Source of the DNA: a virus | DNA length: 29,642 nt | Virus record (IMG/VR): IMGVR_UViG_3300042870_000839 | Location: 1 to 29,642 of that record | Direction: 5' to 3' (one strand) | Shown here: piece by piece, positions 5,080 to 29,642 of the stretch | How positions within the stretch are numbered: position 1 is the first letter of the stretch | How the letters are laid out: each line of letters starts with the position of its first letter | Position numbers and translations under genes: made by a program | Notes under the pieces: model-generated | The model's input: only the letters and a program-made list of their open reading frames with translations | The model's database searches: none | What the model was told of the DNA's origin: nothing

Positions 5080-5101
5080 CCATGATGAAGGAGGAAGTTG
5101 T

Positions 5102-5320: not shown

Positions 5321-5550
5321 GTGCCAAGAAAAAAGATGCTACTAAGATAAACACCTTGGAAGAAATTCATGGAGCCAGTCTCATGAAGCGCAGTCTAATG
5401 TATTCAGGATGGGCTCGACCTGTTCCGGCCTCGATCGTTATATCAATGCAGGGCACGATGATTTTAAGATACATTCGCAAAGGTTTGTTTCTCTACGAGC
5501 CAAAGCCAAAGGTTGATGTTTTCGCTAAAAAAAGAAAGGAGGGAGCATGA
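5317..5550 (+). CDS. Small basic protein, unknown (77 aa)
   Basis: ATG overlaps the previous TGA and is preceded by AGAAAGGAGG at 5303-5312. The product is basic, with a central beta-like segment (PVPASIVISMQGTMILRYIR) and a Lys-rich tail KKRKEGA encoded by the next ribosome-site cassette. No family recognised. Position in a tightly coupled series supports a real gene. Confidence 0.6.
   Translation: MSAKKKDATKINTLEEIHGASLMKRSLMYSGWARPVPASIVISMQGTMILRYIRKGLFLYEPKPKVDVFAKKRKEGA
5533..5550 (+). promoter_or_regulatory. Repeated Shine-Dalgarno/start junction cassette, copy 3
   Basis: AGAAAGGAGGGAGCATGA joins the 77-aa gene to the MarR-like gene and encodes the tail RKEGA. Confidence 0.6.
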
Positions 5551-10227: not shown

Positions 10228-10713
10228 ATGAAAACTACCGAAAAGAAAAAACTGAATGCCCGGCAAGAACGATTCTGTGAATTTGTCGCCGCTGGGGAAA
10301 CGCAGGAGGCTGCTCACAAAAAAGCTGGTTACAAGTGCAGCGCGAACAGCGCGCGTGCCGCGGCCTCGATCATGGCTAATCGTCCTGAAATTAAAGCTCG
10401 TATCTCTGAGCTCAAGCAAAAGCAGCCTGATCTACTGGAGGCGCGATTGACGAAGGAGGAAAAGCTGAAAGTGCTGGCTCGTCTCATTCGCACGCCTGAT
10501 AATTCCGAAGTGGTGAAAGTGGCCGACAAGCTTCGCGCCATCGAACTGCATAGCAAGCTCATGGGTCACTTCGAGCCGGACCGTATGGAATTGGAGCTTG
10601 GCAACACGACGCTGCAAACGATCAAGGAGCGTGCGAAAGAAGTCGGTTACACGCTATCCATGCGTTACGCTCAACCTTCCAGCATGCCGCCAAGAAGCAA
10701 TCACTTGTCATGA
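10228..10713 (+). CDS. terS: Terminase small subunit (161 aa)
   Basis: The N-terminus LNARQERFCEFVAAGETQEA, then HKKAGYKCSANSARAAASIM and NRPEIKARISELK, is the classical Terminase_2 pattern: an HTH DNA-binding region followed by helices. Small terminase subunits recognise the packaging site and stimulate the large subunit. Length is normal. The large subunit follows one gene later, so a packaging operon is clear. The start is ATG 10228, 66 bases after the shared 15-base element; there is no strong Shine-Dalgarno site. Confidence 0.88.
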   Translation: MKTTEKKKLNARQERFCEFVAAGETQEAAHKKAGYKCSANSARAAASIMANRPEIKARISELKQKQPDLLEARLTKEEKLKVLARLIRTPDNSEVVKVADKLRAIELHSKLMGHFEPDRMELELGNTTLQTIKERAKEVGYTLSMRYAQPSSMPPRSNHLS

Positions 10714-13017: not shown

Positions 13018-14110
13018 ATGTCCCGATTCACCAATCCTGACGAGAACGAAGTTCAGTCTTATCTCCGCAAAGTTCAAGCCGGTCAAGGTGGGCAAAGCCC
13101 GAAAGACCAAGCATTAGCACGTAGCAAAAATCCAATGGCGCGTCGTGTAGGCGAGCAGAACATGGCGCAACGTGACAGTGAGAACCTCCGCGCAACCAAC
13201 GAGCAAGCCAAGGTCCAGCAAGACCAACAAAACGACGCGATCAAAGCGCAGGCCGATGCCGTGAAAGCTCAGGAAACGGCAGCGGAAGATCAACGCAAGC
13301 AAAACGTGCGTGCTCATGCTGCTAACAATGGCGTTGTCGAAACTGATATTGCCACTGGTCATCGTGACATTGCTACTCATGCCGATGGCGCGCCCAAGTA
13401 TGAAGCGGGGCCGATTGGTGACCCTGTGAAAGTGGGTGAAGCACGCACGGCTCTGCCCGATGCGCAAGGACAAGCGCAACGCGTGCCCGACATGTCGAGT
13501 ATGCTCGGCGGTGGTGGTGGCGGCGCCATCGGTGCGTCTGGTGCTTCAAGTGCCGCGGTATTTGCTCAATCGGTGCGCGACGATCGCGGACAAACAAGCC
13601 TCGTAACGCCCAATAGCGACACCGATCAGAAAACGGGTGCTATCACTACGTCGAAAATCAATCCTGTGACTGGTCGCACGGAAAAAAATCTCATTGGCCG
13701 GGATCAAGACATTGCAGCAAAAGCCGCATGGCAAAAAGACCTAGAAGAGCGTTCTAAGCTCGTGGAGTTTGACAAAGCAGGCATCGAAGGTGCTCGGCTG
13801 CGCTTCAATCCACAATGGGAACCGGCACATAAAGCCGTGGAAGCTGCGCAGAAAGCTTTCGATGATCTAGGACCAGCGGTCACAGCAAAGGGCAATGCCT
13901 TCGTGCGGACATCGGACAAAGGAAAGGAAACTCTCGCCACTCCCTCCGAGTATGAAACCGATAAGCGCCTGCGCGCTGAGGCGCAAACAGCACTGGAGAA
14001 CGCCAAGAAAGTGCATGAACCGCTCGCGCAACAAAATACTGTCATCGCTGAACGTGAGCAGGCAATCGCTGTGCAACGCCAAGAGCTCGCGGAGGAAAAG
14101 GCTGCGATGG
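13018..14110 (+). other. Giant protein: N-terminal Q/A/K-rich coiled-coil region
   Basis: Residues about 40-110 are rich in Gln, Ala, Lys and Glu with heptad-like spacing. A Gly run at about 162-180 (LGGGGGGAIGASGASS) interrupts, then a second long charged helix spans about 234-365. No enzyme motif is seen. It may be a structural or packaging segment that anchors the protein in the capsid. Confidence 0.5.
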
Positions 14111-17100
14111 AAGCAGGCCTGCCGATGGGTTACAATCACTTGGCCGCTGCGATCGCAAAGCACAACGGTGCTATCGAAGCGAATGACGCTGATGCAGCAC
14201 AAGCGGAAATTGCACAGAAATCCACAACTCCCGAAGGTCAACCGAACATAGCAGTGCCAGTAACCGACATCAACGCGCAAGGCAAGCGTGCGCTCGGTGG
14301 TATGGCTGACCTTCCCGACGTAGTGGGTGAAGCATGGGGCGGAGGTAAAGAAACGGCCTTCTATCGTGGCAATCAGCGTGTGGCGATCATGCGTCCGACT
14401 GACGGTGCTCAAGCTCTGTTTCTCAACGATGCTGAACCAGTAGCAAAGAATGATTGGGATATCGTCAAAGCGCAAGCTGGCAAGCCTGGCTCGATGCCGT
14501 TGTATGTGCGAGAAAATCCGAACCGCAAGGCCATTCCCGTAGAAGCAAAGTGGGTAGCTGACAGCATGGCTACGCTGCAAGCATTAAACGCCAATCCTGA
14601 TGCACCTCCTACACTCGCGCAAACTGACAAGCTCATCACCGACTTAGGTTTGCAACCAGAAGCGATCAAGCAGAAAGTTTTTAATGGTGAAATCAGTGTC
14701 AACACTGGCGAAAAGCTACTCAAGGATTTATACAACGATACTCTCGAAGTCGTGGATCCGAACGATGAAGGCGTATTCCAACAATGGGTCACTGCCGATC
14801 CTAAGCGCGCGGAAAAATGGAAAGAAGCCACCGAGGGCGTGGGCTATAGCTTTTCCAAGCAAAACACCATCAAGCAAGATTACCTTGCAGAATGGTATGC
14901 TCTGAACAAGGGTAAGCCGGGTGTGCGTCGTTCCGATGTGCTGGCTATGCACGCTCTCGATATGGGAGACAAGCATGGTGCGCTATCGAAGGCGAACATT
15001 GTCAGTAAAGCCGGTGCCATGGGACGCAGTGTGCGCGATGACGTGGCTGGATCAATGACTGGTCTGGCCGTTGGTGCGCTGACTACATTAGGAGCTGGTG
15101 AAATGGCGATTTTCGGCGTTGACGGTGCGAAAAAAGAATTCGATGAGGGCATGCGCCTGCGCAATCGCGATTTCGCATCATGGGCAAATACATTCGGGCG
15201 CAATACCGTAGCTTGGAATACCAAAGCAGGCATGAAAGCGCACAGTCAATTCGACATCAGCGCAGGATTGCTAAAGAGTGCGATCGACGATGCCGAAGAT
15301 CATCCCGGCGACTCTACTTATTCCGATTTGGTGGTGAAGCGCGAGAAAGAGATGCGTGCCGCGGCTCTGACGATGCACAATCTTTCGCCCGATGAAGAAT
15401 GGCCGATCACTGCCGACAATCTGGACCCGGACAAGGATGAAGCGCTCGGCATGGCACTGGCAAAATACAAAGCCACTGCGGATCCGCGCATGTTCGCGCT
15501 CTACAAAGATCGTTTGCTTCAAGGTAACGGCCGGCGCCAATATTCCCTCGAACTGGAAAAGAAAATCGGACAGCAAGAAAGCGGATTCTTTGCGTCGGCC
15601 AATCATGCGATGTATGCAGGCTGGCAAGAACTCGGTAGTGAATTGGTAGCCGATTTAGCTGTGCTCGCTACTGCCGGTGCATCCAAGTATTTACAAGTCG
15701 CTGGGAAAGCTGCGCGCGGCATGTCTTTAGCTGGCGATGCTGCTAAGGTGGGCAAGGCTGCTCGTCTTGGTAAAACGATCGATGCGGGGATGGAAGCACT
15801 TGCCAAGTTTGGCAAGCTCGGTGAAGTCACCGGCACGCTACAAAAACCTCTGACCGGACTGCAAAAAACTACTAACGCGGTTCTTGCTGGCGTCAAAGGT
15901 GCGATTGCCGAAGGTGGCGAGGAAGTAATGGTGGAGCTAGGTGCTGACAATCCTGAGCTCATGCAATCATTCGGCATGGGCATGCTTGGCGCGTTCGGGC
16001 TCGCTCCTGTGCAAGTCGCTGGTGCAGCGATATCGAAGCCAGGCGTTACGGCCGCCACGGAAACCAAGCGCAACGAGAACGCTGCAAAAATCTACAATGA
16101 TCGAATGGCCGGCACTGCTGGCTTTGTGCCGATCACTCCAGAACAAGCGGCCGTAGTGCGATCGCTAGCACCACGGGACACAAAAGCGCTTGTCAATGCG
16201 CTCATCGTTGAAGCTGGCAAGGCTCCTAGTGCTGGCATGACTCCGCAACAATACGGCATGCGTCAGCTTGCAATCCGCAATGAACTGGCCAACATCGCGG
16301 CAATCGAGGAAATGAACGTGCAGGCTGCGCGCGAGATTGATCAAGTCCCCGCTGCGGAACGTCCGTTTGTCACTGGCATGGCGAAAGTCGCCGCTGGCAA
16401 CATGGCACTTCTCACGCGTAACGAGCTCGCTGCAATCCAAGGAGCGAAAACCGAGAACGGTGCCGATTACTTCGCGCAAGTGAGAATGCCAGATGGCAGC
16501 ACGGTGGAAACCGTGACATCTGAAGGCCGTGTTGCTTTCGCCGATCGTTATCCTGCCGTCGGTGAACTCATCCAGACAGATGAAAGCACGCTACTCGCGC
16601 AAAATTATGAGCAGAACCAACAAGGACAATCCGCAAGTCCATCCACGGCGCAACCTGTCGCGGTGGCACAGCCTCAGCGTGATGCTATTCTAGGAAGGCT
16701 CGCGCAGATCGAATCTGAACTCGGTCCCGTTGATTCTGTGGATCAAAATGGCAAAATAATCCAGCCTTTACGCGGAATTACCAATGAAGAGCGTACGTTG
16801 CGTGAACAGTTGGCGCAATTAGACGCTGCGGAGTCGTCCGCTGCATTACAAAATCAAGCGCAAGGCCAAGCTCCGAATGTAGGCGCTGCCAGCATGGACG
16901 CTGGGCTTTACGAGTCGATGCGCGCGGAAAATCCCGGCATGCCATCGATTAAAAGCGTGGTGACTGCGGCTCGCGCTGCTGGTGCGCCAGTGCATCCAAG
17001 CATGGCTGCGATCGCTGATCTTCCTGAGTCGTCGAACAGTGCTCCGAACACCTCCCCCGCCCCGGCTGTTTCATCGGGTAGCGTGAATCTGAAAAATCCC

Positions 17101-20100
17101 GCTCTCGCGCCTGCTTTAGCGGTGGCCGAACGTGTGAAAGCGACAATCGAAAGCCGTGTTCCTGGCCTGCGTGGTCGGGTAGCGATTCAAGAAGAGGGAT
17201 ATGATTCTGGTGGTGTTGCTCAGTCGGTCAATACTGGCGGTCTGATATTGCCACTGGAAGACATTCAGCGGGAAATTGATTTAAGGGGCGGCGATGCTGC
17301 CTCTACTGCGGACATTATCGAGCAACTGGCCTCCCGTCATGAAGTCGTGCATGTGGCTCAATTTGAGCATGTGCGTGCAGAGTGGGAGAAAGCAGGATCG
17401 CAAGGTGATTTTGTTGCGTTCTTCAAATCATTCTACGAGAAAATTGCTAGTGACATACTTACTCCCGAAGCTGAGGCCGTGGCTCGTGACATCTACGGTG
17501 CAGAAGCATGGGATGCGATCGACAATGACGGGTTAAAAGCTGCGGAGTATGTGCGCATGCTGGTGGAATCAAAACTTGATCCATCCAAGCAGGACCAATT
17601 CGGCGAACTGTTCCGTGCCATCAAGGACAAATCTACAATCGCCGATATCATTCGTCGTGCACTGGAAATGCTGCGAACCATGACTCTCTCGCCTGCCGCT
17701 AAGGAGCATGTCGCCAAGATCGAGCAGCTTTACAAAGAACTGACCACGGAAAGCGCAACCTCGGCAACGAAAACGGACGGTTTACGCGTCATCAACAATG
17801 GCAATCAATCGCAAATTGTGAACGGTGACACCGTGTTGTGGCAGGGCCCCGCCGATCAAGCTGATGCAGAACTGCAAAGCCTGAACGATCAAGCTTCCTC
17901 TTCGCTTCGTGTAGCCGGTCAAGCCATCACTGAAAACTTAGAAAAATTCCCTGCCCTATCAGGAAAATACCGCGCGGAAATCGAAGGAGCCACTGATGAC
18001 ATTTATGACATTCTGGAAACGCTAGCACCGGGCGAACGCATGGCGGCAGCGCAACAAGCCGTCGCCGATCGTATCAACGCCATTGCCGATCGTGAGGCCG
18101 CTCGCACCGGCAAGGATCGTATGGAAGTCATCGAGGGTTTTCGTGCTGTGGCAGGCAAACAGCGTGCGGCCTCCGCTGCTTCTGTGGAGTCGGCCATTGT
18201 CGGCACTGATGCTCCTGTGATTCCTGCAGGTGTTACCGAGAAGCGTGATACTCCCAATGGCGAAATGACCATCGACGTTGTGCAATCTGCCGTCGATCTG
18301 GATCAACTCGTGGGATCCTCTGACCCTCGCTTTCCGGGTGCTGCTTTACAACCTCGCAATCGTTCCGGCCAAGCATCGGCCAACCAGCGCGAGGAAATGG
18401 TGAAAAATATCCGCGATAAGGACGGCCAATACAAGCGATACGTCGAAGGCGCAACGACTGATAGCGGTCGCCTCGTTGTCGCTCCCCTGTTCGGGGCCGA
18501 TGGCAAACACATGACAAATGAAGCTGGCAAGCCATTGTTTTATGTGATTTCTGGCAACGGCCGCCGCAATGCTTTGGAAGAGTCACGCAACCGCAAGGTG
18601 GATTCTCGCTATCAACGTGAAGTTCGGGCGGCGTTATCAGGTGATAACATCGATGTTTCCGGCATGGCTATGCCTGTGCCTGTTTCGGTCTATGTGCCGC
18701 AATCTCCAAAAGATGCCATCGATCTTGCTGAATTTTCAAACCGCGATGCGCAACTTAGCGTTTCCAATACGGAGCAGGCCAATCGTGACGCTGCTAGCAT
18801 CGAGAAAGGAAACCTTCTCAAGTTGTGGGAGCCTGATTCTTCTGGTGATCCCGCGTCCGCATCGAATCGCGATTTCGTGAAAGCGTTCATTCGTGCTACT
18901 GGCGATGAAAGCGTAGTTGATTCAAAAGGCAATCTTACCGATGAAGGATCGCAACGTATCGAGCGCGCCATGGTATCGATGTTGCTCGGGCCCAAAGAAT
19001 TGCAACTGACTGAACTGCTGTTCAATCGCGCAAGCGCGCTTGGCCTTCGCTCTATTCTTAGCGGCGTGGCTACTGAGGCGGGAAATCTTCTCAAGCTTGC
19101 TGCTGCAAAGCCTGATTTCGATCTGACTCCCGCACTGGCCGATGCTCTACGCACTGCGGTGGAAGCGAAAGCCGCGGTAACTTCTGGAACATCTGCCAGC
19201 GTGTCAGAATTCTTCGACCAGGGCGACATGTTCAACACCACGGAAAATACGCCCGAACGTCAACTGGCTCGTGCTATCGTTGAAAGTCGCTCGCGCAAGG
19301 CTATTCGTGATATCCTCGGTGCTTACATCAAGGCCGCAAATGCCGTTGATACTGGCACAATGTCGATGTTCGACGATGGCGAGACTACGCGCGAGGATCT
19401 GATTCTCAAAGCACTGGAAGCACGCCCGATCGAGCAAGTGATTGCCGAAGTCGCGGCAGAGTTTGGGCCAAATGCGGACCTTCCCGCCAAGCTGCGCGTG
19501 ATCGCTCCGGGCGTGAAGAAAATGGATGCCATGCAGCGTCGTGAATTATCGAACGCGATCGGCGCCGAAGCTGACCGGCTGCGCATGGGTGTAATTTCCG
19601 CTCCCGAGTATCAACGTCTCAATCCTGATGCGCTCACGCCTCGCGCTGCGTTCTTCCAGCGGATTCTTGACAGTCACACTGCCGATACCATTCGTGGAGG
19701 GTTTGAAAAGCTGCTCACGCCTTCTGCGCAAGCTGTGCTGGGTGCTTCTGCTACTGTTGATGCTACTCTTCCTTCTGAGTTTGTTCTTTTCCCCGCAAGT
19801 TCAGGAACGCTAGGGATTCCTCGTCGTGAAATGCCGCAAATCAAAATGAAGCATCGCGGCGAACTCATGGATTTCCTTACGTCTAAAGGTGTGAAGTTCA
19901 GTGATGAAGATGTTTCTCCTAGCAGCATCAAGCCGACTCAAGCTGAATACAGCCCAATCAAGACAGAACGAGCCAAGGGCATTGATTTTCCACGGCGTTT
20001 GTTTCTCTCTTCTGATAACTTCTTGATCGATGGTCATCACCAATGGCTCGCTCAGATGGATAGGCCAACAGTGGAAGTTACTCGATTTAATGTGCCTGCC

Positions 20101-23100
20101 AAACGTGCTTTACGCATGATGTTTGCCTTTCCGCTGACTGAAAAAGGATCGGGTATGCCGGTGCTAAAATCCAGTCCAACAGAAATTGCACAGCAAAAAT
20201 TTGATGATGTAATCAAGAAGTATTCGGGCCATGCTCCGCAAATTTCCGATGAGGAATTACTATCGCAACTCGTCGCTAAATTTGGGCAACAGCAAGTTGA
20301 TTTAGTAGGAGAACAATTCGATGAGCGCAAAAAATACCTACAACAATTTGCCGATGGTTTTGACTCAAGCGTAAAAGAAATCGCTGAAAAATTCGAGGCT
20401 CGTCCAATGTTAGCACCGCTCAAAGGTCGCAAGCGCAGTGTCGAAAAAGCACTGTATGACTACGATGGCGATGTGATGAGACTCGGTGACGTTATCCGTG
20501 CATCAATCGTAGCTAAGACCATTGCCGATGTTGATACCATTGCTGACGAAATCAATAGTCGATTCAAGGTGATTAAATTCAAGAATCGCTTTAGTCCACC
20601 ATTGCCACAAGGATATTCTGATATGCTATTTCAAGTGGAAGTTGCACCTGGTGTAACTGCTGAGATTCAAGTTCACATCGTGGAGATGATCGAGGCGAAA
20701 GAAAGAGCAGGACACTATCTTTACGAGATGTATAGATCCATCGAAAAGGCAGCAGGAAAAGAAGCCGAACAGCAACGGCAAATGTATATGGACCAGATGC
20801 TAGAGGTTTATACCGCTGCGGCTGGTTTAGCATTAGCGAAAGAAGATGCGCTTGCCATTGCTCGTTCAACCAGTGCGTCGAACTCTGCGGCTGATATTTC
20901 AGCTTCGTATGCTAACTTCCGCGCGGTGTTTTCCGATAGTGGCCGTGGCTCACCTTTGGCGTTGAACAATCCAACTGGAGATTCTAGCGGTGCTTTGGCG
21001 ACTGGAATATCGTCAACATCGAAGAACTTAGTACCAGCGGGAAATTCAGAAGCATTCATTGCGAATAAAAATACACAAAACACAGAACAAACGCAAGAGG
21101 ATTCTTCAACTATTTTACGTGCCTCCGTAACTGCGGATTTATTCGGTGCTATCGAATCACCTAAGCCACAACTCACGCCCGATGACGATCGAGCACGTGC
21201 GGCTCTTGACAGCAATAAGCGTGACAAGTTTGGCGCGATGCGTGGCGAGAAAGGCATGAAAGCAGGATTCCGCTTAGACCTGCCATCATTCAATCGCGGT
21301 GTGCCGGTCGTGTCGATTCACGGAACAGGGATCGGTAAAGTATTAGGTTACGATGTAGCCATTCACTTGAAAAATGCCACATTCCGTTCGCGTGAAAATG
21401 CGGCCTTAACGATACGCGACGGTGGCGCAAAGTCGCCAATGGCTGCTGTAGAAGGTGAAGTTGTCAATGTTGGGCGTAGTATCTCGGCTCCTTCTGATTG
21501 GGTGCCAGTTCGCTACAATCCAAAGGTGCACAGCTATTTCTTTGCTGCCGATGAAATGCCAGTGATTGCAGCCGATGAGGCTATGCAAGTGGGTGCTCGC
21601 GTGTTCGTGCGCAATCCTACCTACGGCAAGCGTGAAGATTTCCTTTTCGCCTCGCCGACACAAATGGACATGTTCGGCGACATCGAAGCCGCGGCCACTG
21701 GTCCGCGCGCCAAAGCGAAAGCCAACGCTCTAGCACTGGCAAAATCTGCGCCAAATGAAAAGGGCAAGGCCTCGATCGTCAATCGCGTCGCCAAGCTCGA
21801 AGGACTACCCGTCAACGATCTGTTTGGTGACATGGGCGTGAAAGCACTTGACGCGAAACCGAAGAAGGTGCAGAGTGCCCCTGATGAATACGATCTATTC
21901 GGCGGATTTGGTGGCACCGGCAATCGCGGCTCTGACGGAACAACAGATAGTCAATCTGGTGGAACAGCGGAAGTTCGGGGCATGGCTGGCAAGTCGGACC
22001 TCTTCAACCTCGGTGGGCGTAACTCGTCAACCGGACTCGGTGGAAGCAAGCGACGCGGCGATGGCAGCGGGAGAAGCGGATTATCAGGCGACGCAAGTGA
22101 TAGCGACGCTAACGGAGGAACAGCAGGAGGCGCTGGTGTTTCAGGCAAGTCTGGAAATCTCGGGGGACGCAATGACGGAACTACGGGATCTGATGCCAGT
22201 GTAATTGAACTGGATGCGAATGCCGTTCCTGATGTCATCCCGACACCGGAGAACGAAGCGGACCGTAACGCTCGAATCAATCCGGGCGAGATTCTTGTGC
22301 CTAAAGGTCAAGGTGGTAAAATCTCAACAAACTTTGAAGTCATCGAACTGCTGCGCATGCTCACCGAGCAAGGGCGCAATCCCACTACTGCGGAGAAGGA
22401 GAAACTGCTTACTTATTCCGGCTGGGGTCACTCGAAGGCCGCGTTTGATGATGCTAAGGCAAAAGCTTATGAAGAGGCTGCTGATGTTTTCAAAACACAA
22501 CTATGGAAGAGCGATAAAGACACGTTCAAGCGCCGATTCAACTACACGGAAACCGATGAACGAGGCAACAAGATTGCCACTGCTTATGACCTTTTCACAT
22601 GGAATGACAAGTGGGGCGAAACGCACCGCGAATTAAAAGAGCGCCTGTCCGATAAGGAATACAACGCCGCCAAGCGGTCTGTATTGAATGCTCACTACAC
22701 AACTCCTGCCATCATCGATGCGCAATGGAAGATGGTGGAGAAACTCGGGTTCAAGGGTGGCCGCGCATTGGAGCCCGGCGCTGGTATCGGTCACTACATC
22801 GGCACGCAACCGAAACACCTGGCTGAAAGAACCGTGTGGAGTGCTGTCGAATTGGATCTGGTCACGTCGCAAATTCTCGCGCTGCTTTATCCACAAACGC
22901 GCGTCAACTCAGTTTCTTCTGGCGCTGGTCGTGAGATTACTGGCCAAGGATTTGAAGAGGCTCTGATTGCGGACAACTCTCAAGACATCGTAATTTCCAA
23001 CGTGCCGTTTCACGAGACAGGTCCATGGCAATCGAAGAAGCAATTCAACACTGAGTTGAACCTGCACAATTACTTCTTTGCTCGTGCCCTGCAGAAAGTC

Positions 23101-26100
23101 AAACCGGGCGGCTTTGTGGTGTTCATCACCTCATCGAGCACGATGGAAAACAACGCTGCGCAGCGCCGATTCTTGGCCGCGCGCGGTGATTTGATTTCAG
23201 CGGTCCGCCTGCCAAATAATGCGTTCAAAGATAATGCCGGCACAGAAGTGACAACTGATATTATCATCTTGCGCAAGCCTGACGGTCGTAAAGTAGAGAC
23301 TCACTCGTGGCTTGGCACTCGTGTTGTTGGCAATGGCAAGGTCACGTTCAAGCGTGGCGACATGACTCCTACGCAATACCTGAAAGGGTTTGACCTAGAA
23401 GGAACGTGGGAAGATGAATCATTGGAAAGCGCGCGCCAAACGTGGTCGGATTTACGTCTTGCTGGGTTGCAAATTGCCGACGGCAAAGAGTTCAAGGACG
23501 AGAAAAAAGCCAACGCCGATGCAACTGCGAAAGCGTGGAAGAAATACGTCGAGACATTCGAGAGTGTGGAAGGCAATGCCATCGGCATGAAGCTCAACGC
23601 AACGGTGCCGATTCGTGTGAATGAATACTTCGCTGCCAATCCGCAAAACGTATTTGGCACGCACGCCTTAGCAGGATCGATGTATAGTCCGAATGAATAC
23701 GCTTTGCTGCCTGATGAAAACGGCGGCACGCTTGAGCAGCGCTTCGCTAAGGTTATCGAGGAACTTCCCGCTGACATCATGGGGCAAGCATCAGTGCTGA
23801 AACTCAACACGGCCCGTGACATCGAGCGCACTGACATTCCTTATTCCTTTGTCGAGCGTGATGGCAAGTTCTGGCAAGTGCAGAAGGATCGACTAGAACC
23901 GGTCGAATGGGATTTCGCGCAAGGCATGGCATTCCGTTCATGGAAAGACGTCAAAGATGCTGCGCGCAACCTCATCGAAGCAGAGCTAGATCCTCAAGCA
24001 GAAGGTCCAGAAATCAGCGCGTTGAGAGAAAAACTCAACGATGTGTATGCCAAGCATACAAGCCGATTCGGTCCAATCTCCAAGACTGGCGCGGGACAAA
24101 AACACGGCCATCTTGTGGAGGATCCAGATTACCCGCTGACGGTAGCTCTCGAAGTGCCGGTGAAATATACCACCACCAAGGGCAAGAGTGCCACTCGCTA
24201 CGATAAGGCTGACATCTTCCGCGTGCGCATGAATAAACCGCTCGCGCCTCCTGCGACGGCTGACAACGTATCTGATGCGCTGCTCGCCTCATTGGTCTGG
24301 ATTGGTTACCCGCACGCCGGTTACATGGCCAAATTGCTCGGCCAAACAGAAGTAAACGTCCGCGCGGAAGCGATCGAATCAGAATTGGTCTTCGAGGACC
24401 CAACAACGGGGACTCTTGTCATCCGTGACGCTTACTTGTCCGGCCATGTGCAAGGCAAACTCGAAGAGGCTCGCGCCGCGGCAGAAGAGGATCCCGCTTA
24501 TCGTCGCAACGTCGCTGCGCTCGAAGCTGCTCTTCCTGAGCGCAAGGGCATCGCGCAAATCGGCGTCTCGATGAACTCCCCTTGGCTACCGCCTGCGGTC
24601 ATGACTGCATTCATGGAGCATATCGGCATCATGGATGGCAAGGTGAGTTATCTGCAAGCTGCTAACATGTGGACCGTTGAAGGCGATGGTGGATCTGATG
24701 TGTTTGTTACGGGTCATGTCAGCACCAAAGAATTGATTGAAAACGCTCTTTCCATGGTTTCGCCTCGTGTGACAGTCACCGAAGGCACCGGAAGGGATCG
24801 TCGTGAAGTGTATAGTCCAGAACAAAGCCAACTGGCAAAATCGAAGGTGGACGCGTTGAAAGTTGAGTTCACCAAATGGGCAAAAACATCGGACGCCAAG
24901 GTGGATGATGTAAGCGTGCAGGATATGATTGTCGAGGCATTCAACGAGAAAGCCAACGGTCACCGCCCTCCCGCCTATTCTGGCGAACACATCACCCTGC
25001 CCGGCGCTTCTGATGAAGTATTCCGCTCATCGATACGTCGCTCCGCGATCGCTCGCATGATCGATCAAGGAAGCGGCATGATTGCGCACGGTGTTGGATT
25101 CGGCAAAACTTACACACTCATTGCCTTAGCGATGGAGTTGAAACGCCTCGGCAAGGCCAATCGTCCGATGATCATCGTCGAGAATGCTACGCTTGGCCAA
25201 TTTGCTGCCAGTTTCCGAACAGCATACCCGAACGCCCGATTACTGGTCGCTGACAAAGCATCGTTTGAGGGCAAGAAGCGCCGACAATTCATCGCACGCA
25301 TCGCCACCGGCGATCACGATTGCATCGTTATGCCGCATTCGAGCTTCAATCTAATCGGCAATCACAAGGACGTAGTGAACAACTATATCAACGAGCAGAT
25401 TGCAGAACTCGAAGCTGCACGTGCCCTCACTGATTCTTCCGATCGTCGTGCGGTTGCCGCATTGGAGAAAGCAAAGATCAATCTTGAGAACTCTCGGAAA
25501 AAGATTCTCGATGCGCTTGCCAGTCGTCAAGACGGTGGGCTCGTGTGGGAAGACTTGGGCGTTGATACGCTGCTTGTCGATGAAGGGCACCGCTACAAAA
25601 ACGCGCCGGTCATCACTCGCATGCAAGGAATGAAAAACCTTCCTACGGGGGCACCTTCGCAACGTGCTGTCGGCATGGTCCTGAAAACTCGGGGCATTCA
25701 AGACAGAATGGCAGGCCGTGGCGTTTATTTTGCTACAGGCACGCCGGTATCGAACAGCATGGCAGAAGCATACATTATGCTGCGCTATACCGATCCTCGC
25801 TTGCTCGCGCAGGCTGGCATCACAAACTTTGATCAGTTCGTGGCAAGCTTTGGTGAAACCGAAGTAAAAGCAGAAGCCAACTGGAAAGGCGCTGTGTCTA
25901 TGGAAACCCGCTTGTCGAAGTTCGTGAACGGCAACGCGCTCATTAACCTGATTCGCTCGTCGTGGGACGTGCAGATGGATCCCGACGTGGCCGGAATCAA
26001 TCGCCCTGACATCAAGGGCGGTGCTTCTGAGCAAGTTATGGTCGCTCCAGGGCCTGCCAATGCGGCTTACAATGATTGGGTAGTGAATACCATCGCGCGC

Positions 26101-29100
26101 CAGTGGGATGACCCGGCATATTGGACAAGCAATTACGCATCGAAGAAAGACGCGTTTGAGGATCATCCTTGGCTCTCGGCGATTCCGATCATGACGATGC
26201 AGGCCGGTATGGCTGCGGCGTTGGATATCCGACTGATCGACCCGAACGCACCAGACTTTGAAAACTCCAAGGTCAACACCGCAGTGCGCAACGTCGTAGA
26301 AAACTACAAAGCGACAACGAAGTATTCAGGCGCGCAAGCGATCTTTTCCGACCTGCGGGAAAGCTTCTCGATTGATCACTTGCTGAACTTTGCCGGCGAT
26401 CCCGGACTATCCGAGCAGGGCATGGAAATCCCCGAACTTGAGCCGATCGTGCTCGGTCCTGATGGCGTCGCGTTGGATCCTCAACCGAAATCGAAGAAGG
26501 TCAAAAAAGCCAAGGAATTCGATCTGTATGCTGACATCAAAAAGAAACTGGTGGCAGAAGGCATTCCCGCAAGTGAAATCGCGTTGATTTCCTCATCGAT
26601 GGCACCGGAAAAGCGCACTGAACTTTTCGACAAAGTGAACAGTGGCGAGGTTCGTGTGGTCATTGGTTCCACTGACCTCATGGGTGTGGGTGTGAATATG
26701 CAAGAGCGCTTGTTTGCACTGCATCACCTCATGCCGCCGCGCGACTTCAAGCCTGCGTCCATGGAGCAGCGCAACGGTCGTATTTTACGCCAAGGAAATA
26801 TTCACTATGAGATGCAAGTCGAGGCCTTTGTCCTGGCTGCGGAAGGAATCACCGGCCAGAAATTCCGCAAGGAAAAGGGCGGTCGCCAAGTGCCTGACAT
26901 CAAGGCCGCGCGTGCTGCGCTGGCAGAAAATTCCGACGCGATGCAACTCGCCGATGAAGCCGCGGCAAATCATCACATCATTCTGCGCGAGTATGCGATG
27001 GAGAAATCCATTGATAGCGCCGTGTATTCGATGATGGCCGCCAAGCAACGCATGGTCGTGCAGTTGCTCATGGGTGAAGTGTCTGATTCTTTCGAGGATC
27101 CAAGCGACGCCATTTCAATGGGCATGGCAGAAATTGCCGCGCGTGCCATCGGCGACCCAACGTTGATTCGCCGCGTGGAGCTCGATCGTGAGATTCGGAA
27201 TCTAAACATGGAGTATTCTCGATTCGAGTCCGACATGGCAAGCGCGCGTGAGCGTGTAAGATATTTGGAAGGATCTCTTTCAAGGAAAGATGCGGATATT
27301 GCCTACGCTCGAAAATACGAAGCGGAATTAGGCAAAATTGGTGCCACCGAAGGGAAAGAAACCGTGTGGGAATTTGGGGGAACGGTCATTGATCGCAACA
27401 AGCCAAAGGATGCAGAAAAAGGATGGAAAGCTCCGCGACTTATCGAGGCCTTGGATCTTTACTTAGCAGAAGAAAGCGCCAAACTAGCGTCTTCTGATCG
27501 CAAGAAAACCAATGTTAATATCAAGGTGGATGGCGTCGGATTCAATGTAGAGATTCACCACATGCTCGGCAATGTTGTGAGCGATCGCAAAAAAACCGAG
27601 GCCGAAAAATACAAGGCGGCCATGGGCGATAAAGCCGGTGACATTGCTCTGAATCCAGAAGAAGAAAAAGCTGCCATTTCCGCCAAGGGAGAGATTAGCT
27701 GGGTGGGCAACAACCGCGCAAGCATTCCGTTTGCCGGTGCTAAGTCCATGAGTAGTGCTGTGAGTGTCTTTGCCAGAAATGCCGATGGCAAGGTGTCACG
27801 CACGGAGGATGATTTCGCCTATCTTGAAAAGCAACTGCCAAGCGCAAGAAACCGAGCCTCGCAAGTCTTCGACAAGCAGGACCTTCTTGATTCTCTGCGC
27901 GCTGAGATGGCGCAAGTGGAAGCTCAACTAGCAGCCAATGCTGCCCCGCGCACGAATCGTCCAGATACACCTCTTGCTGTGGAAGCAAAGGCGAACGCGC
28001 CAGAAATCAAAGCTGGCGATCTTGTTCGCTTCAAGGATAAACCAAACGATGGCACTTATGAGGTTTGGATGGCAGAAAAAGGAATTGTGAAACTTGCTCG
28101 TCAAGGCATGCGCAACTTGTCTTTCAATGTAGAAAATTTTGAGATTGTTGATCCAAGCGAAACGCATGATGCTGTCGCCACGGTAATGTCTTTGCTTCGC
28201 TCGGAGAATCAGCAAAGCTACCCTGGCCGTGGGCTGGAGCCTAGAAATAACATGCTCATGGCTTCACCTTCCGACGTGATGAGCTACATCGAAACGCAGC
28301 AAGATGATGATGCTTATGATGCGTTTAACAATCGCTTTGATGAATACATCTACGAGGATCCTAGCACGTCTAGAAAAACTCCGACGTTTGATCTTCACAA
28401 GCGTGCTGGTCGTGAAGTTCTCACGCCAAAGCAAGCTGCGGAACGATTGGCAGAATGGAAAAACATCGCGAAGAAAGACGGAAAAGAACGCGGGAATTCA
28501 TCTCGCATCGTGCTGTCTTTATTTGATACATCCGGTGTTATCTCTCAACCGTGGCGCGATGCTGGATTTACTGTCTATTCGATGGATATTGATCCAAACT
28601 CCGAAATTGCTTGGAACGTCGATGTGATGGACCTGACTCGCGACTTCCTAGAAGACAACGGCCTCGACATGGTTGACGTTGTTCTCGCTCAACCTCCCTG
28701 CACCGACTTCGCTTCTTCTGGTGCTCGTTGGTTTGCGGAGAAGGATGAAGACGGGCGCACCAAACACAGCGTGGCAATGGTGAAACGCACTCTTGATGTG
28801 ATTGGATTCCTTCGCCCGTCGCTTTATGCTGTCGAAAATCCGATTGGCAGAATTACCAGTCTTACCGGGTTACCAAAACCGCGATTGGTGATGGATCCGT
28901 TCATGTATGGCGAGCCATATACCAAGCGCACTCAGATTTGGGGTATGTTCAACGAGGATCTGCCCGAAGCCGTAGTAGAACCGACCGAGGGAAGTCGTAT
29001 TCATAATCTCCGAGGCGATGTGCCAGAGCAAAAGAAACTGCGCTCGCTCACGCCCGAAGGATTCGCTTACGCGTTTTATGTGGCCAATCGCGACTTAGGC

Positions 29101-29642
29101 AAGGATCACTATGACCGAGTAGTAAAGGACTCCGCTCACGTTAAGACAGAGCAAGGGATGTTGTTTTCGTCTCCGACACAAAAGGGAGCCAATGGCCGAC
29201 CAGCAATCAAAACAAACGACGGGCGAACTCTCGAAGCGCCTGGCCTTGTGTTGATGGCTTCACCGACGAAGGCATATCACGGCACGCCGCACAAAATTAA
29301 AACTAAGTTCTCAACTGAGAAAATCGGAACCGGTGAAGGTGCACAGGCTTACGGGTGGGGCCTGTACTTTGCCGACTCGATGGAAGTCGCAGAATCATAT
29401 CGCAAAGAATTATCACAAAGCGGTGGATTCGCAGAACGCGCAATAGTGCCGGCCAATGATGACATGAAGAAAAAGCTTCATGGATTCCTCAACTTTGCTG
29501 ATTCCGCTCTCTACAATGTGGCCAACGATGTTGCTATCAATGGAGCAACAAACGCAAAAGAAGCTGCGAAAATTGTTCGTGATGAACTGATCGCACAGCC
29601 ACGGATTCACGATCATTACCTCAAGGCTTATGAGGGCATCGC
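13018..29642 (+). CDS. Giant polyvalent protein, at least 5,541 aa, C-terminus outside window
   Basis: I read the frame from ATG 13018 to the right edge and found no stop codon. Upstream in frame the first codon block is the terL TAA, and no other ATG intervenes. The ribosome site is weak. Domains in order: coiled coils, hydrophobic segments, zincin, ddrB/ParB-like, ParB/Srx-like, RelA/SpoT-like, an LPD-like beta domain, a Gly/Ser linker, N6-methylase, SNF2 helicase, coiled coil, small barrel, C5-cytosine methylase and ADP-ribosyltransferase. This architecture is that of polyvalent proteins, which phages and conjugative elements deliver with their DNA. The methylase-helicase part recalls P1 DarB, a virion protein that protects incoming DNA. 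Delivery and defence roles are inferred. Confidence 0.9.
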   Translation, partial: MSRFTNPDENEVQSYLRKVQAGQGGQSPKDQALARSKNPMARRVGEQNMAQRDSENLRATNEQAKVQQDQQNDAIKAQADAVKAQETAAEDQRKQNVRAHAANNGVVETDIATGHRDIATHADGAPKYEAGPIGDPVKVGEARTALPDAQGQAQRVPDMSSMLGGGGGGAIGASGASSAAVFAQSVRDDRGQTSLVTPNSDTDQKTGAITTSKINPVTGRTEKNLIGRDQDIAAKAAWQKDLEERSKLVEFDKAGIEGARLRFNPQWEPAHKAVEAAQKAFDDLGPAVTAKGNAFVRTSDKGKETLATPSEYETDKRLRAEAQTALENAKKVHEPLAQQNTVIAEREQAIAVQRQELAEEKAAMEAGLPMGYNHLAAAIAKHNGAIEANDADAAQAEIAQKSTTPEGQPNIAVPVTDINAQGKRALGGMADLPDVVGEAWGGGKETAFYRGNQRVAIMRPTDGAQALFLNDAEPVAKNDWDIVKAQAGKPGSMPLYVRENPNRKAIPVEAKWVADSMATLQALNANPDAPPTLAQTDKLITDLGLQPEAIKQKVFNGEISVNTGEKLLKDLYNDTLEVVDPNDEGVFQQWVTADPKRAEKWKEATEGVGYSFSKQNTIKQDYLAEWYALNKGKPGVRRSDVLAMHALDMGDKHGALSKANIVSKAGAMGRSVRDDVAGSMTGLAVGALTTLGAGEMAIFGVDGAKKEFDEGMRLRNRDFASWANTFGRNTVAWNTKAGMKAHSQFDISAGLLKSAIDDAEDHPGDSTYSDLVVKREKEMRAAALTMHNLSPDEEWPITADNLDPDKDEALGMALAKYKATADPRMFALYKDRLLQGNGRRQYSLELEKKIGQQESGFFASANHAMYAGWQELGSELVADLAVLATAGASKYLQVAGKAARGMSLAGDAAKVGKAARLGKTIDAGMEALAKFGKLGEVTGTLQKPLTGLQKTTNAVLAGVKGAIAEGGEEVMVELGADNPELMQSFGMGMLGAFGLAPVQVAGAAISKPGVTAATETKRNENAAKIYNDRMAGTAGFVPITPEQAAVVRSLAPRDTKALVNALIVEAGKAPSAGMTPQQYGMRQLAIRNELANIAAIEEMNVQAAREIDQVPAAERPFVTGMAKVAAGNMALLTRNELAAIQGAKTENGADYFAQVRMPDGSTVETVTSEGRVAFADRYPAVGELIQTDESTLLAQNYEQNQQGQSASPSTAQPVAVAQPQRDAILGRLAQIESELGPVDSVDQNGKIIQPLRGITNEERTLREQLAQLDAAESSAALQNQAQGQAPNVGAASMDAGLYESMRAENPGMPSIKSVVTAARAAGAPVHPSMAAIADLPESSNSAPNTSPAPAVSSGSVNLKNPALAPALAVAERVKATIESRVPGLRGRVAIQEEGYDSGGVAQSVNTGGLILPLEDIQREIDLRGGDAASTADIIEQLASRHEVVHVAQFEHVRAEWEKAGSQGDFVAFFKSFYEKIASDILTPEAEAVARDIYGAEAWDAIDNDGLKAAEYVRMLVESKLDPSKQDQFGELFRAIKDKSTIADIIRRALEMLRTMTLSPAAKEHVAKIEQLYKELTTESATSATKTDGLRVINNGNQSQIVNGDTVLWQGPADQADAELQSLNDQASSSLRVAGQAITENLEKFPALSGKYRAEIEGATDDIYDILETLAPGERMAAAQQAVADRINAIADREAARTGKDRMEVIEGFRAVAGKQRAASAASVESAIVGTDAPVIPAGVTEKRDTPNGEMTIDVVQSAVDLDQLVGSSDPRFPGAALQPRNRSGQASANQREEMVKNIRDKDGQYKRYVEGATTDSGRLVVAPLFGADGKHMTNEAGKPLFYVISGNGRRNALEESRNRKVDSRYQREVRAALSGDNIDVSGMAMPVPVSVYVPQSPKDAIDLAEFSNRDAQLSVSNTEQANRDAASIEKGNLLKLWEPDSSGDPASASNRDFVKAFIRATGDESVVDSKGNLTDEGSQRIERAMVSMLLGPKELQLTELLFNRASALGLRSILSGVATEAGNLLKLAAAKPDFDLTPALADALRTAVEAKAAVTSGTSASVSEFFDQGDMFNTTENTPERQLARAIVESRSRKAIRDILGAYIKAANAVDTGTMSMFDDGETTREDLILKALEARPIEQVIAEVAAEFGPNADLPAKLRVIAPGVKKMDAMQRRELSNAIGAEADRLRMGVISAPEYQRLNPDALTPRAAFFQRILDSHTADTIRGGFEKLLTPSAQAVLGASATVDATLPSEFVLFPASSGTLGIPRREMPQIKMKHRGELMDFLTSKGVKFSDEDVSPSSIKPTQAEYSPIKTERAKGIDFPRRLFLSSDNFLIDGHHQWLAQMDRPTVEVTRFNVPAKRALRMMFAFPLTEKGSGMPVLKSSPTEIAQQKFDDVIKKYSGHAPQISDEELLSQLVAKFGQQQVDLVGEQFDERKKYLQQFADGFDSSVKEIAEKFEARPMLAPLKGRKRSVEKALYDYDGDVMRLGDVIRASIVAKTIADVDTIADEINSRFKVIKFKNRFSPPLPQGYSDMLFQVEVAPGVTAEIQVHIVEMIEAKERAGHYLYEMYRSIEKAAGKEAEQQRQMYMDQMLEVYTAAAGLALAKEDALAIARSTSASNSAADISASYANFRAVFSDSGRGSPLALNNPTGDSSGALATGISSTSKNLVPAGNSEAFIANKNTQNTEQTQEDSSTILRASVTADLFGAIESPKPQLTPDDDRARAALDSNKRDKFGAMRGEKGMKAGFRLDLPSFNRGVPVVSIHGTGIGKVLGYDVAIHLKNATFRSRENAALTIRDGGAKSPMAAVEGEVVNVGRSISAPSDWVPVRYNPKVHSYFFAADEMPVIAADEAMQVGARVFVRNPTYGKREDFLFASPTQMDMFGDIEAAATGPRAKAKANALALAKSAPNEKGKASIVNRVAKLEGLPVNDLFGDMGVKALDAKPKKVQSAPDEYDLFGGFGGTGNRGSDGTTDSQSGGTAEVRGMAGKSDLFNLGGRNSSTGLGGSKRRGDGSGRSGLSGDASDSDANGGTAGGAGVSGKSGNLGGRNDGTTGSDASVIELDANAVPDVIPTPENEADRNARINPGEILVPKGQGGKISTNFEVIELLRMLTEQGRNPTTAEKEKLLTYSGWGHSKAAFDDAKAKAYEEAADVFKTQLWKSDKDTFKRRFNYTETDERGNKIATAYDLFTWNDKWGETHRELKERLSDKEYNAAKRSVLNAHYTTPAIIDAQWKMVEKLGFKGGRALEPGAGIGHYIGTQPKHLAERTVWSAVELDLVTSQILALLYPQTRVNSVSSGAGREITGQGFEEALIADNSQDIVISNVPFHETGPWQSKKQFNTELNLHNYFFARALQKVKPGGFVVFITSSSTMENNAAQRRFLAARGDLISAVRLPNNAFKDNAGTEVTTDIIILRKPDGRKVETHSWLGTRVVGNGKVTFKRGDMTPTQYLKGFDLEGTWEDESLESARQTWSDLRLAGLQIADGKEFKDEKKANADATAKAWKKYVETFESVEGNAIGMKLNATVPIRVNEYFAANPQNVFGTHALAGSMYSPNEYALLPDENGGTLEQRFAKVIEELPADIMGQASVLKLNTARDIERTDIPYSFVERDGKFWQVQKDRLEPVEWDFAQGMAFRSWKDVKDAARNLIEAELDPQAEGPEISALREKLNDVYAKHTSRFGPISKTGAGQKHGHLVEDPDYPLTVALEVPVKYTTTKGKSATRYDKADIFRVRMNKPLAPPATADNVSDALLASLVWIGYPHAGYMAKLLGQTEVNVRAEAIESELVFEDPTTGTLVIRDAYLSGHVQGKLEEARAAAEEDPAYRRNVAALEAALPERKGIAQIGVSMNSPWLPPAVMTAFMEHIGIMDGKVSYLQAANMWTVEGDGGSDVFVTGHVSTKELIENALSMVSPRVTVTEGTGRDRREVYSPEQSQLAKSKVDALKVEFTKWAKTSDAKVDDVSVQDMIVEAFNEKANGHRPPAYSGEHITLPGASDEVFRSSIRRSAIARMIDQGSGMIAHGVGFGKTYTLIALAMELKRLGKANRPMIIVENATLGQFAASFRTAYPNARLLVADKASFEGKKRRQFIARIATGDHDCIVMPHSSFNLIGNHKDVVNNYINEQIAELEAARALTDSSDRRAVAALEKAKINLENSRKKILDALASRQDGGLVWEDLGVDTLLVDEGHRYKNAPVITRMQGMKNLPTGAPSQRAVGMVLKTRGIQDRMAGRGVYFATGTPVSNSMAEAYIMLRYTDPRLLAQAGITNFDQFVASFGETEVKAEANWKGAVSMETRLSKFVNGNALINLIRSSWDVQMDPDVAGINRPDIKGGASEQVMVAPGPANAAYNDWVVNTIARQWDDPAYWTSNYASKKDAFEDHPWLSAIPIMTMQAGMAAALDIRLIDPNAPDFENSKVNTAVRNVVENYKATTKYSGAQAIFSDLRESFSIDHLLNFAGDPGLSEQGMEIPELEPIVLGPDGVALDPQPKSKKVKKAKEFDLYADIKKKLVAEGIPASEIALISSSMAPEKRTELFDKVNSGEVRVVIGSTDLMGVGVNMQERLFALHHLMPPRDFKPASMEQRNGRILRQGNIHYEMQVEAFVLAAEGITGQKFRKEKGGRQVPDIKAARAALAENSDAMQLADEAAANHHIILREYAMEKSIDSAVYSMMAAKQRMVVQLLMGEVSDSFEDPSDAISMGMAEIAARAIGDPTLIRRVELDREIRNLNMEYSRFESDMASARERVRYLEGSLSRKDADIAYARKYEAELGKIGATEGKETVWEFGGTVIDRNKPKDAEKGWKAPRLIEALDLYLAEESAKLASSDRKKTNVNIKVDGVGFNVEIHHMLGNVVSDRKKTEAEKYKAAMGDKAGDIALNPEEEKAAISAKGEISWVGNNRASIPFAGAKSMSSAVSVFARNADGKVSRTEDDFAYLEKQLPSARNRASQVFDKQDLLDSLRAEMAQVEAQLAANAAPRTNRPDTPLAVEAKANAPEIKAGDLVRFKDKPNDGTYEVWMAEKGIVKLARQGMRNLSFNVENFEIVDPSETHDAVATVMSLLRSENQQSYPGRGLEPRNNMLMASPSDVMSYIETQQDDDAYDAFNNRFDEYIYEDPSTSRKTPTFDLHKRAGREVLTPKQAAERLAEWKNIAKKDGKERGNSSRIVLSLFDTSGVISQPWRDAGFTVYSMDIDPNSEIAWNVDVMDLTRDFLEDNGLDMVDVVLAQPPCTDFASSGARWFAEKDEDGRTKHSVAMVKRTLDVIGFLRPSLYAVENPIGRITSLTGLPKPRLVMDPFMYGEPYTKRTQIWGMFNEDLPEAVVEPTEGSRIHNLRGDVPEQKKLRSLTPEGFAYAFYVANRDLGKDHYDRVVKDSAHVKTEQGMLFSSPTQKGANGRPAIKTNDGRTLEAPGLVLMASPTKAYHGTPHKIKTKFSTEKIGTGEGAQAYGWGLYFADSMEVAESYRKELSQSGGFAERAIVPANDDMKKKLHGFLNFADSALYNVANDVAINGATNAKEAAKIVRDELIAQPRIHDHYLKAYEGI
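15037..16032 (+). other. Giant protein: hydrophobic helices, possible membrane-active region
   Basis: A hydrophobic stretch at about residues 674-700 (GSMTGLAVGALTTLGAGEM) and a second long Ala/Gly/Val-rich region at about 870-1005, including AIAEGGEEVMVELG and FGMGMLGAFGLAPVQVAG, stand out against the charged surroundings. Similar segments occur in injected phage proteins, where they may cross or line a membrane. That role is inferred. Confidence 0.4.
17149..17720 (+). other. Giant protein: zincin-like metallopeptidase domain
   Basis: HEVVH at 17338-17352 (His1441, Glu1442, His1445) is the zinc-binding HExxH helix, within SRHEVVHVAQFEHVRAEW. A downstream helix with EAEAVARDIYG and AAEYVRMLVE could supply the third ligand and lid. 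Such peptidase domains are known in polyvalent proteins. Targets may be host proteins or this protein itself. Confidence 0.65.
18289..19200 (+). other. Giant protein: ddrB-type ParB-like domain and its helical continuation
   Basis: LQPRNRSGQASANQREEM followed by VISGNGRRNAL (near 18547-18573) is the signature of the ddrB-like ParB superfamily domain. The following AEFSNRDAQLSVSNTEQA and LTDEGSQRIERAMVSML match the helical part usually attached to it. ParB-like domains bind or cut DNA or modify small substrates; activity here is not known. Confidence 0.7.
19822..20115 (+). other. Giant protein: second ParB/Srx-like domain (DGHH)
   Basis: MPQI, a helix ELMDFLTSKGV, SSIKPTQAEYSPIK and LIDGHHQWLA (20026-20052, Asp2338 to His2341) follow the order of ParB/sulfiredoxin-like domains found in phage head-associated proteins. 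The usual Arg after DGHH is Gln here, so catalysis could be altered. Confidence 0.7.
20401..20760 (+). other. Giant protein: RelA/SpoT-like nucleotidyltransferase domain
   Basis: LKGRKRSVEKAL, LGDVIRASIV, FKNRFSPPLPQGYSDM and AEIQVH with HYLYEMYRSI reproduce in order the Arg/Lys, Asp..Arg, Lys..Gly-Tyr and Glu-x-Gln positions of RelA/SpoT-fold enzymes. It could make or transfer pyrophosphate to a nucleotide or an RNA end, or be a degenerate copy. It lies next to the DGHH domain. Confidence 0.6.
21205..21660 (+). other. Giant protein: beta-rich LPD-like domain
   Basis: VLGYDVAIHLKNATFRSREN, IRDGGAKSPMAAVEGEVV, VPVRYNPKVHSYFF and VIAADEAMQVGARVFVRN form a strand-rich block resembling a large-polyvalent-protein-associated domain of unknown function. 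I cannot give its number. It ends at the LFASPT motif. Confidence 0.5.
21661..22210 (+). other. Giant protein: linker with DLF motifs and Gly/Ser-rich tract
   Basis: QMDMFG (21661-21678), NDLFGD, YDLFGG and SDLFN follow one another within about 330 bases, and then a Gly/Ser/Asp-rich tract runs to about 22200. No fold is expected. The same DNA has a protein-like reading in frame 2. Confidence 0.65.
21848..22204 (+). CDS. Candidate overprinted gene nested in the giant ORF (118 aa, or 106 aa from ATG 21884)
   Basis: Frame 2 is open from after a TGA at 21839 to TAA at 22202-22204. A TTG at 21848 gives 118 residues and ATG at 21884 gives 106. The product looks like a real soluble helical protein: ALTEQQIVNLVEQRKFGAWL, then VIATLTEEQQEALVFQASLE and GDAMTELRDLMPV. 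Its codons (GAA, CAG, GCG, CTG) resemble genuine genes here, whereas the giant frame over the same bases is a Gly/Ser-rich tract with many GGA codons. A weak AGAAGG lies about 15 bases before ATG 21884, which is far. It could be a separate gene or a +1 frameshift tail. Confidence 0.45.
   Translation: MTRNRRRCRVPLMNTIYSADLVAPAIAALTEQQIVNLVEQRKFGAWLASRTSSTSVGVTRQPDSVEASDAAMAAGEADYQATQVIATLTEEQQEALVFQASLEISGDAMTELRDLMPV
22300..23290 (+). other. Giant protein: N6-adenine methylase-like domain (DarB-like)
   Basis: LLTYSGWGHSKAAFD, HYTTPAIIDAQW and LEPGAGIGHYIG (AdoMet-binding motif I, 22768-22803) are followed by AVELD and VISNVPF (Asn3328), the catalytic NPPF-type motif in the NVPF form usual for this family. 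NYFFARALQKVKPGGFVVF completes the Rossmann core. Motif order is that of the methylase-helicase fusions of phages and plasmids. Confidence 0.8.
24970..26900 (+). other. Giant protein: SNF2-type helicase domain
   Basis: Walker A AHGVGFGKTY (Lys4030), Walker B VDEGHRYK (Asp4188, with DEGH in place of DEAH), motif III-like FATGTPVSN (25729-25755), and in the second lobe STDLMGVGVNMQ and QRNGRILRQGN (26767-26799) give a complete SF2/SNF2 motor. Together with the methylase it would move along DNA, as proposed for DarB-like antirestriction proteins. Confidence 0.85.
27175..28150 (+). other. Giant protein: coiled coil and small beta-barrel after the helicase
   Basis: A charged coiled coil (VELDREIRNLNMEYSRFESD and onwards) at about residues 4720-4770 is followed by an unassigned region and then a compact strand-rich segment AGDLVRFKDKPNDGTYEVW (28015-28071) that resembles an SH3/KOW-type barrel. 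Functions unknown. Confidence 0.45.
28384..29105 (+). other. Giant protein: C5-cytosine methyltransferase-like domain
   Basis: LSLFDTSGVISQPW (AdoMet motif I, 28516-28557), AQPPCTDFASSGARW (motif IV with Cys5228 at 28699-28701) and AVENPIGRI (motif VI ENP, 28834-28842), then TKRTQIWG, give the catalytic order of Dcm-type enzymes in the compact form seen in phages. It likely modifies phage DNA in the cell or guards it. Confidence 0.8.
29272..29642 (+). other. Giant protein: ADP-ribosyltransferase domain (cut by window end)
   Basis: AYHGTPHKIKTKF, IGTGEGAQAYGWGLYFADS and VAESYRKEL are the N-terminal motifs of the ADP-ribosyltransferase class found in polyvalent proteins, with the NAD-binding H-G-T and the Y-G-x-GLYFA turn. 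The catalytic Glu region would lie beyond the edge. The target is unknown. Confidence 0.75.

Follow-up and report, generated by a model that had tools for sequence, protein, structure and literature searches.

A DarB-type polyvalent protein of a tailed phage with a Tas1-like alarmone synthetase domain and two variable stretches that look like cargo slots

The DNA analysed here, referred to as the window, is the whole of virus record IMGVR_UViG_3300042870_000839 (29,642 bp), and it ends within an ATG-initiated frame of 5,541 codons that contains no stop and is open at the 3' end of the contig. The original prediction, made from the letters alone, read this frame as a single phage protein joining enzymes of genetic conflict, and regarded it as an extreme case. 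The question raised by the locus is whether so long a frame encodes one genuine protein and, if so, to which class the protein belongs and what its domains would do for the phage. The features identified are listed in Table 1.

Table 1. Features of the window, with nucleotide positions, residues of the giant protein and the basis of each assignment.
Feature	Position	Strand	Residues	Basis
Terminase small subunit	10228..10713	+		phrog_51 3e-15; 40-41% identity to the orthologues' genes
Terminase large subunit (terL), directly upstream of giant	11140..12969	+		phrog_2 2e-12; 70% identity to neighbour gene on the Acidobacteriales-MAG phage contig
Giant ORF	13018..29640	+	>=5,541 aa	3' end past contig; ~6,700 aa expected when complete, from orthologues
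N-terminal carrier region	13018..17007	+	1-1330	Shared with orthologues
Putative zincin metallopeptidase	17131..17817	+		HEVVH at 1441-1445; conserved Glu in (A)AE downstream
ddrB-like ParB domain	18265..18687	+	1750-1890	PF18763 2e-9, above cut-off
Second ParB-like domain (ParB2)	19789..20133	+	2258-2372	KPTQAE, DGHHQW motifs; slot A
Tas1-like alarmone synthetase (RelA/SpoT SYNTH) domain	20281..20838	+		Profile, model, fold, motifs; slot A
Phage L5 gp82-like domain	21310..21588	+	2765-2857	PF25735 4.6e-8, above cut-off; slot A
N6-adenine DNA methyltransferase	22243..23337	+	3076-3440	TP, EPGAG, NVPF motifs; PF07669 (Eco57I) 6.7e-6; phrog_10089
SWI2/SNF2 ATPase	23605..27387	+	3530-4790	GVGFGKT, DEGH, QRNGRILRQG; Helicase_C 1.7e-8
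Short segment, last independently confirmed point of continuity	28162..28287	+	5049-5090	45% identity to orthologue, E 1e-4
Cytosine-C5-methyltransferase-like domain	28360..29160	+	5115-5381	PPC, ENP motifs; slot B
ADP-ribosyltransferase (ART-PolyVal), N-terminal part	29263..29640	+		YHGT, YGWGLYF; PF18760 4.4e-7; slot B

Reality and length of the frame

The frame is open from its start to the contig edge, as had been claimed. The odds of 5,541 open codons arising by chance are about 1e-108 (by arithmetic, given that ~4.4% of random codons are stops), so a chance frame is excluded. The start codon at 13018 is backed by the N-terminus of an orthologue, as the window begins MSRFTNPDENEVQSYLRKVQAG and the corresponding ORF of contig JAJFUV010000287.1 begins MSSRFRRSDPEAEVQAYLDEVRAG.

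IMG/VR searches for close relatives with the N-terminal 800 aa, or with the adenine methylase-SNF2 dyad alone, gave no match; alignment queries succeeded, and three other phage contigs were found to carry the same gene in the same location. The giant is 6,526 aa in IMGVR_UViG_3300048583_000219 (G001, 59,637 bp) when read across the contig ends, 6,457 aa in IMGVR_UViG_3300032293_001543 (G008) and 6,341 aa in JAJFUV010000287.1 (G011, 64,767 bp). The ends of G001 form an exact 127-bp terminal repeat (L090:1-127 and L092:19874-20000), so it is most simply circular, which suggests an assembly broken inside the giant gene; annotation of this giant fragment by fragment would miss ~500 residues. The 64.8-kb contig JAJFUV010000287.1 (L169) was binned with an Acidobacteriales MAG, which is a hint at the host and, as binning alone, no proof of it. 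In all three contigs the gene order is terL, giant, portal-type gene, the portal being called by PHROG in G001 and by homology in G008 and G011.

Residues 2-369, 550-2245 and 3076-4733 of the window giant are collinear with one ORF of JAJFUV010000287.1, residues 1283-2709, 2875-4963 and 5049-5090 with one ORF of G001, and residues 97-1214, 1371-2244 and 3077-4771 with one ORF of G008. Because the same order is found in single ORFs of independent contigs, an assembly fusion, one of the errors by which the original prediction could have failed, is excluded for residues 1 to ~5,090, and the giant frame is real rather than an artefact.

The conserved C-terminal ~1,140 aa common to G001, G008 and G011 (50-63% identity) are missing from the window. 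A more distant relative (G002) encodes a giant of 6,604 aa; related giants span 6,102-6,604 aa and many others 4,800-5,400 aa, and among 112 ORFs with a DarB core 15 of the 65 distinct complete lengths, counted stop to stop, are at least 5,000 aa. The examples examined from cultured phages measure 3,640-5,145 aa, and a plasmid polyvalent protein of 12,242 aa has been published (PMC5512222). By size the giant is therefore typical of its lineage and not the extreme case it was taken for: DarB-type giants of more than 6,000 residues recur in ~60-kb phage genomes and are no oddities.

Class and domain content

Polyvalent proteins were described as a class by Iyer et al. 2017 (PMC5512222), and the giant, whose gene lies between terL and the portal gene of a tailed phage of ~60-65 kb, is a DarB-type member of it. 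It contains the dyad of an EcoKI/TaqI-like adenine methyltransferase fused to a SWI2/SNF2 ATPase, which matches the DarB-like phrog_10089 at 2e-242; Pfam, PHROG and PDB profile searches place several domains of unrelated activity in the one chain; and packaging genes surround it, with terL upstream in the window and the portal gene downstream in the orthologues. SGWGHS, a variant of GxG(G/A/S) seen in the sequence itself, stands where the motif of a candidate LPD36 domain would be expected before the methyltransferase. In the methyltransferase itself NVPF is shared by 41 of 112 relatives, and 63 of the 112 have NPPF.

The polyvalent identity, the N6-methylase, the SNF2 helicase, the two ParB-like domains and the ADP-ribosyltransferase of the original prediction were all upheld, though not with equal force. 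Recognition of the ddrB-like ParB domain by Pfam is clear. ParB2 is 41-42% identical to its counterparts in phages 8P, PEp14 and BcepIL02, and its KPTQAE and DGHHQ motifs are conserved in an alignment of seven giants; a PDB sequence search with it returned nothing. The ADP-ribosyltransferase match lies exactly at the PF18760 cut-off and the domain is cut by the contig end. Of its H-Y-E triad, YHGT and YGWGLYF are present in the truncated domain, while the third residue is probably encoded past the contig end; a PDB sequence search with the fragment returned nothing. The L5 gp82-like domain had been missed.

Two further domains were sustained in part. For the zincin, the two histidines and the glutamate of HEVVH and the later glutamate are invariant in four orthologues, and a model built from four sequences reached pLDDT 82, but neither a profile nor a PDB or BFVD fold match at E<0.001 recognised it, so that it is termed putative here. 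For the C5-cytosine methylase, the region matches phrog_757, a large PHROG annotated as DNA methyltransferase, at 7e-45, is 44% identical to the phage 8P giant, and has a catalytic PC (motif IV) and an EN (motif VI, within ENP) that are invariant in an alignment of nine giants. Against this, it scores 13.3 bits with PF00145, below the cut-off of 22, for which reason it is called C5-methylase-like, and there was no significant match among solved cytosine methylases; cytosine would be its likely target on motif grounds.

The presence of adenine and cytosine methylases in one chain had also been considered extreme. The C5-like domain was however found in eight other ORFs, of which seven have the DarB core (8P, L022, L037, L043, L051, L057 and L067) and one, L080, is a fragment; the combination thus recurs in at least seven other giants, including that of the cultured Pseudomonas phage 8P. 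The giant of the cultured Burkholderia phage BcepMigl has no C5 domain. A synthetase and a C5-like methyltransferase in one chain were seen in the window alone among ~110 related ORFs, many of which are truncated, and no claim of uniqueness is made.

The DarB-like proteins of phage P1, the Bcep22-like podoviruses (BcepIL02, JC1) and PEp14 (Iyer et al. 2017) share the dyad, a ParB-like domain, giant size and a packaging-gene neighbourhood with the window giant. Their genes follow structural genes, whereas the window giant lies between terL and portal, has no transglycosylase that could be found, combines an alarmone synthetase, a C5-like methylase and an ADP-ribosyltransferase in one chain and, if complete, is ~30-40% longer. 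The giant 'structural protein' of phage 8P (5,145 aa) likewise unites C5 methylase-like, ParB2, N6-adenine methylase and SNF2 domains; its C5 domain precedes the dyad, unlike that of the window giant, and it has no alarmone synthetase match. A prophage giant of Acetonema longum, WP_004096050.1, joins a zincin, SNF2, adenine methylase, ART and a nucleotide-signal enzyme (Iyer et al. 2017); compared by description alone, that enzyme is a GGDEF cyclase rather than a RelA/SpoT synthetase. The domain set of the window giant, alarmone synthetase included, is uncommon, while its class is a known one and its relatives match it in length.

The Tas1-like domain and the two variable stretches

The RelA/SpoT-like domain was the most strongly confirmed. 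A single-sequence search already matches Tas1 (5e-10), and a five-sequence profile run against the PDB matches it at 4.8e-24, with RelA/SAS enzymes at ~5e-5. The model has a pLDDT of 95.2 and Tas1 as its top PDB fold match (1.2e-9); all 50 PDB fold matches listed are RelA/SpoT-superfamily pyrophosphokinases (alarmone or tRNA). The K..R..K, DxxR, GY and ExQ motifs (and a histidine) are invariant or at least 90% conserved in 42 aligned phage homologues. By motifs and model the alarmone-synthetase domain is complete, is most similar to Tas1 and is predicted to be active. Members of the Tas1/Apk family (Tas1/Apk1, the MuF-linked Apk2 and SaEAS) are the best match in both sequence and fold; unlike them, the window domain is embedded in a DarB-type giant. 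Phage alarmone synthetases linked to MuF have been described (Apk2; PMC12691689), as have polyvalent proteins of phages that contain RelA/SpoT domains (PMC5512222).

The domain is present at 66 IMG/VR loci, in DarB-type giants and also in smaller genes; in 50,697 phage records no synthetase domain inside a DarB-type giant was found at tblastn sensitivity. The gene directly after the portal gene of Bordetella phage PHB04 (L008:11083-12564), annotated as hypothetical, encodes a Tas1-like synthetase domain, and many ORFs of 300-800 aa like it occur in IMG/VR. A human-gut phage record (L009) that matched the synthetase domain was dropped as a phage polyvalent case, since by sequence it resembles an ordinary RelA. 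GC3 of the stretch 20200-20940 is low for the ORF (0.40, z -2.1), and below average in the G001 counterpart (z -1.4), which is faintly suggestive of recent acquisition.

Among the orthologues, residues 1-2245, the dyad and the C-terminus are conserved blocks, with two variable stretches between them. The N-terminal block is 42% (residues 2-369) and 43% (residues 550-2245) identical to that of JAJFUV010000287.1, and its first 1,330 residues have no Pfam or PHROG match. The first variable stretch, slot A (~aa 2250-2870), holds ParB2, the synthetase and the gp82-like domain in the window, and ParB2, the synthetase and a weak ART match in G001. In G008 and G011 it holds a zeta-toxin kinase (PF06414), located inside the orthologous giants at L165:10737-13379 (1e-30) and L169:12031-13533 (1e-28), respectively. 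Slot B, after ~aa 5,090, contains the C5-like and ART domains in the window and an ART in G008 (1.7e-12). Since the position of the synthetase is taken by a zeta-toxin-like kinase in two orthologues, the variation looks like an exchange of cargo within a carrier that itself stays fixed. Polyvalent proteins of Helicobacter are known to be mosaic (PMC5512222).

A tentative extension of this pattern regards the giants as constant carriers in the virion that offer two slots for exchangeable cargo. Slot A would be reserved for an enzyme that arrests growth, either a Tas1-like synthetase or a zeta-type kinase; its injection at entry would stall the host through small-molecule poisoning in the same step in which two kinds of methylation protect the DNA. 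The occupants of the same two positions would offer a route to further phage-delivered effectors.

Delivery and its alternatives

What the analysis shows directly is the frame itself, which domains it encodes, their motifs, the synteny and the conserved ends, and the exchange of slot contents between orthologues; from these we infer packaging, injection, cleavage and the enzyme activities of the window giant, injection by analogy with relatives. With a probability of roughly 70%, the giant is a packaged and injected carrier whose dyad and C5-like domain protect DNA, whose cargo enzymes stall or modify the host, and whose HExxH domain may cleave. It would most likely be packaged in the head and enter together with the DNA, on which the N6-adenine methylase/SNF2 pair would travel, modifying it or shielding it against restriction; a second modification would come from the C5-methylase-like domain. 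Synthesis of (p)ppApp or (p)ppGpp by the Tas1-like domain would deplete ATP/GTP and so stall the growth of the host. Host proteins would be the substrates of the ART, and the ParB-like domains would act on nucleotides or DNA by binding or cutting them. Cleavage by the HExxH domain may release working pieces from the chain, a self-cutting role suggested by the class (PMC5512222).

Packaging is proposed because the conserved C-terminal stretch of G001, which is 50-53% identical across orthologues, matches phrog_6651, 'internal virion protein' (4.5e-10), and because mass spectrometry of JC1 virions purified on CsCl identified the related 4,515-aa DarB-like protein by 51 unique peptides (PMC9144972). 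On the other side, P1 DarB is reported to need partners such as DarA (PMC9144972, PMC10269572). The 'defence-and-takeover kit delivered in one chain' of the original prediction is plausible, and its logic is that which Iyer et al. published for the class (PMC5512222). If this is correct, an alarmone synthetase or a zeta-type kinase is injected by some phages as part of a very large anti-restriction protein, and protection of the DNA is coupled to arrest of the host in the one chain that is delivered.

That same virion-like C-terminus, together with the long conserved N-terminal region, in which no known enzyme is recognised, would also fit a giant that is packaged chiefly for a role in structure or ejection, with several of its enzyme domains as degenerate passengers. 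The motif residues of the synthetase, SNF2 and adenine and cytosine methylase domains are however intact across divergent relatives, which makes this reading unlikely. The cargo domains may instead act late, in the producing cell or a lysogen, in host shut-off or the exclusion of competing phages, and not at entry. The giant gene sits with late packaging genes, and both alarmone synthetases and zeta kinases typically occur in toxin and exclusion systems. Action of polyvalent proteins on rival elements has been discussed (PMC5512222), but the presence of the related giant in purified JC1 virions (PMC9144972) and the conserved virion-like C-terminus argue for entry, and late action is considered quite improbable. 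That the frame is a fusion of separate genes, or that its last ~450 codons alone are chimeric, is very unlikely: the C5 and ART tail (aa ~5,100-5,541) has no orthologue match at that position and its GC drops slightly, to 0.50, but its GC3 is normal (0.50), G008 has an ART in the corresponding slot, and up to ~5,090 the residues follow the same order in single ORFs of independent contigs.

The genes before the terminases in the window are phage replication and recombination genes (RecT-like, RecE-like, YqaJ exonuclease, SSB, replication initiator, DnaC-like loader and exonuclease). The RecT-like gene (2356-3324) shares 94 bases with the RecE-like gene (3231-4358), and the YqaJ-type exonuclease gene (4405-5079) comes next, so that two recombination exonuclease-type genes adjoin each other within 2356-5079. 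Upstream of the terminases, at 9050-9628, a small protein matches a phage sigma-factor family (phrog_351, 2e-13).
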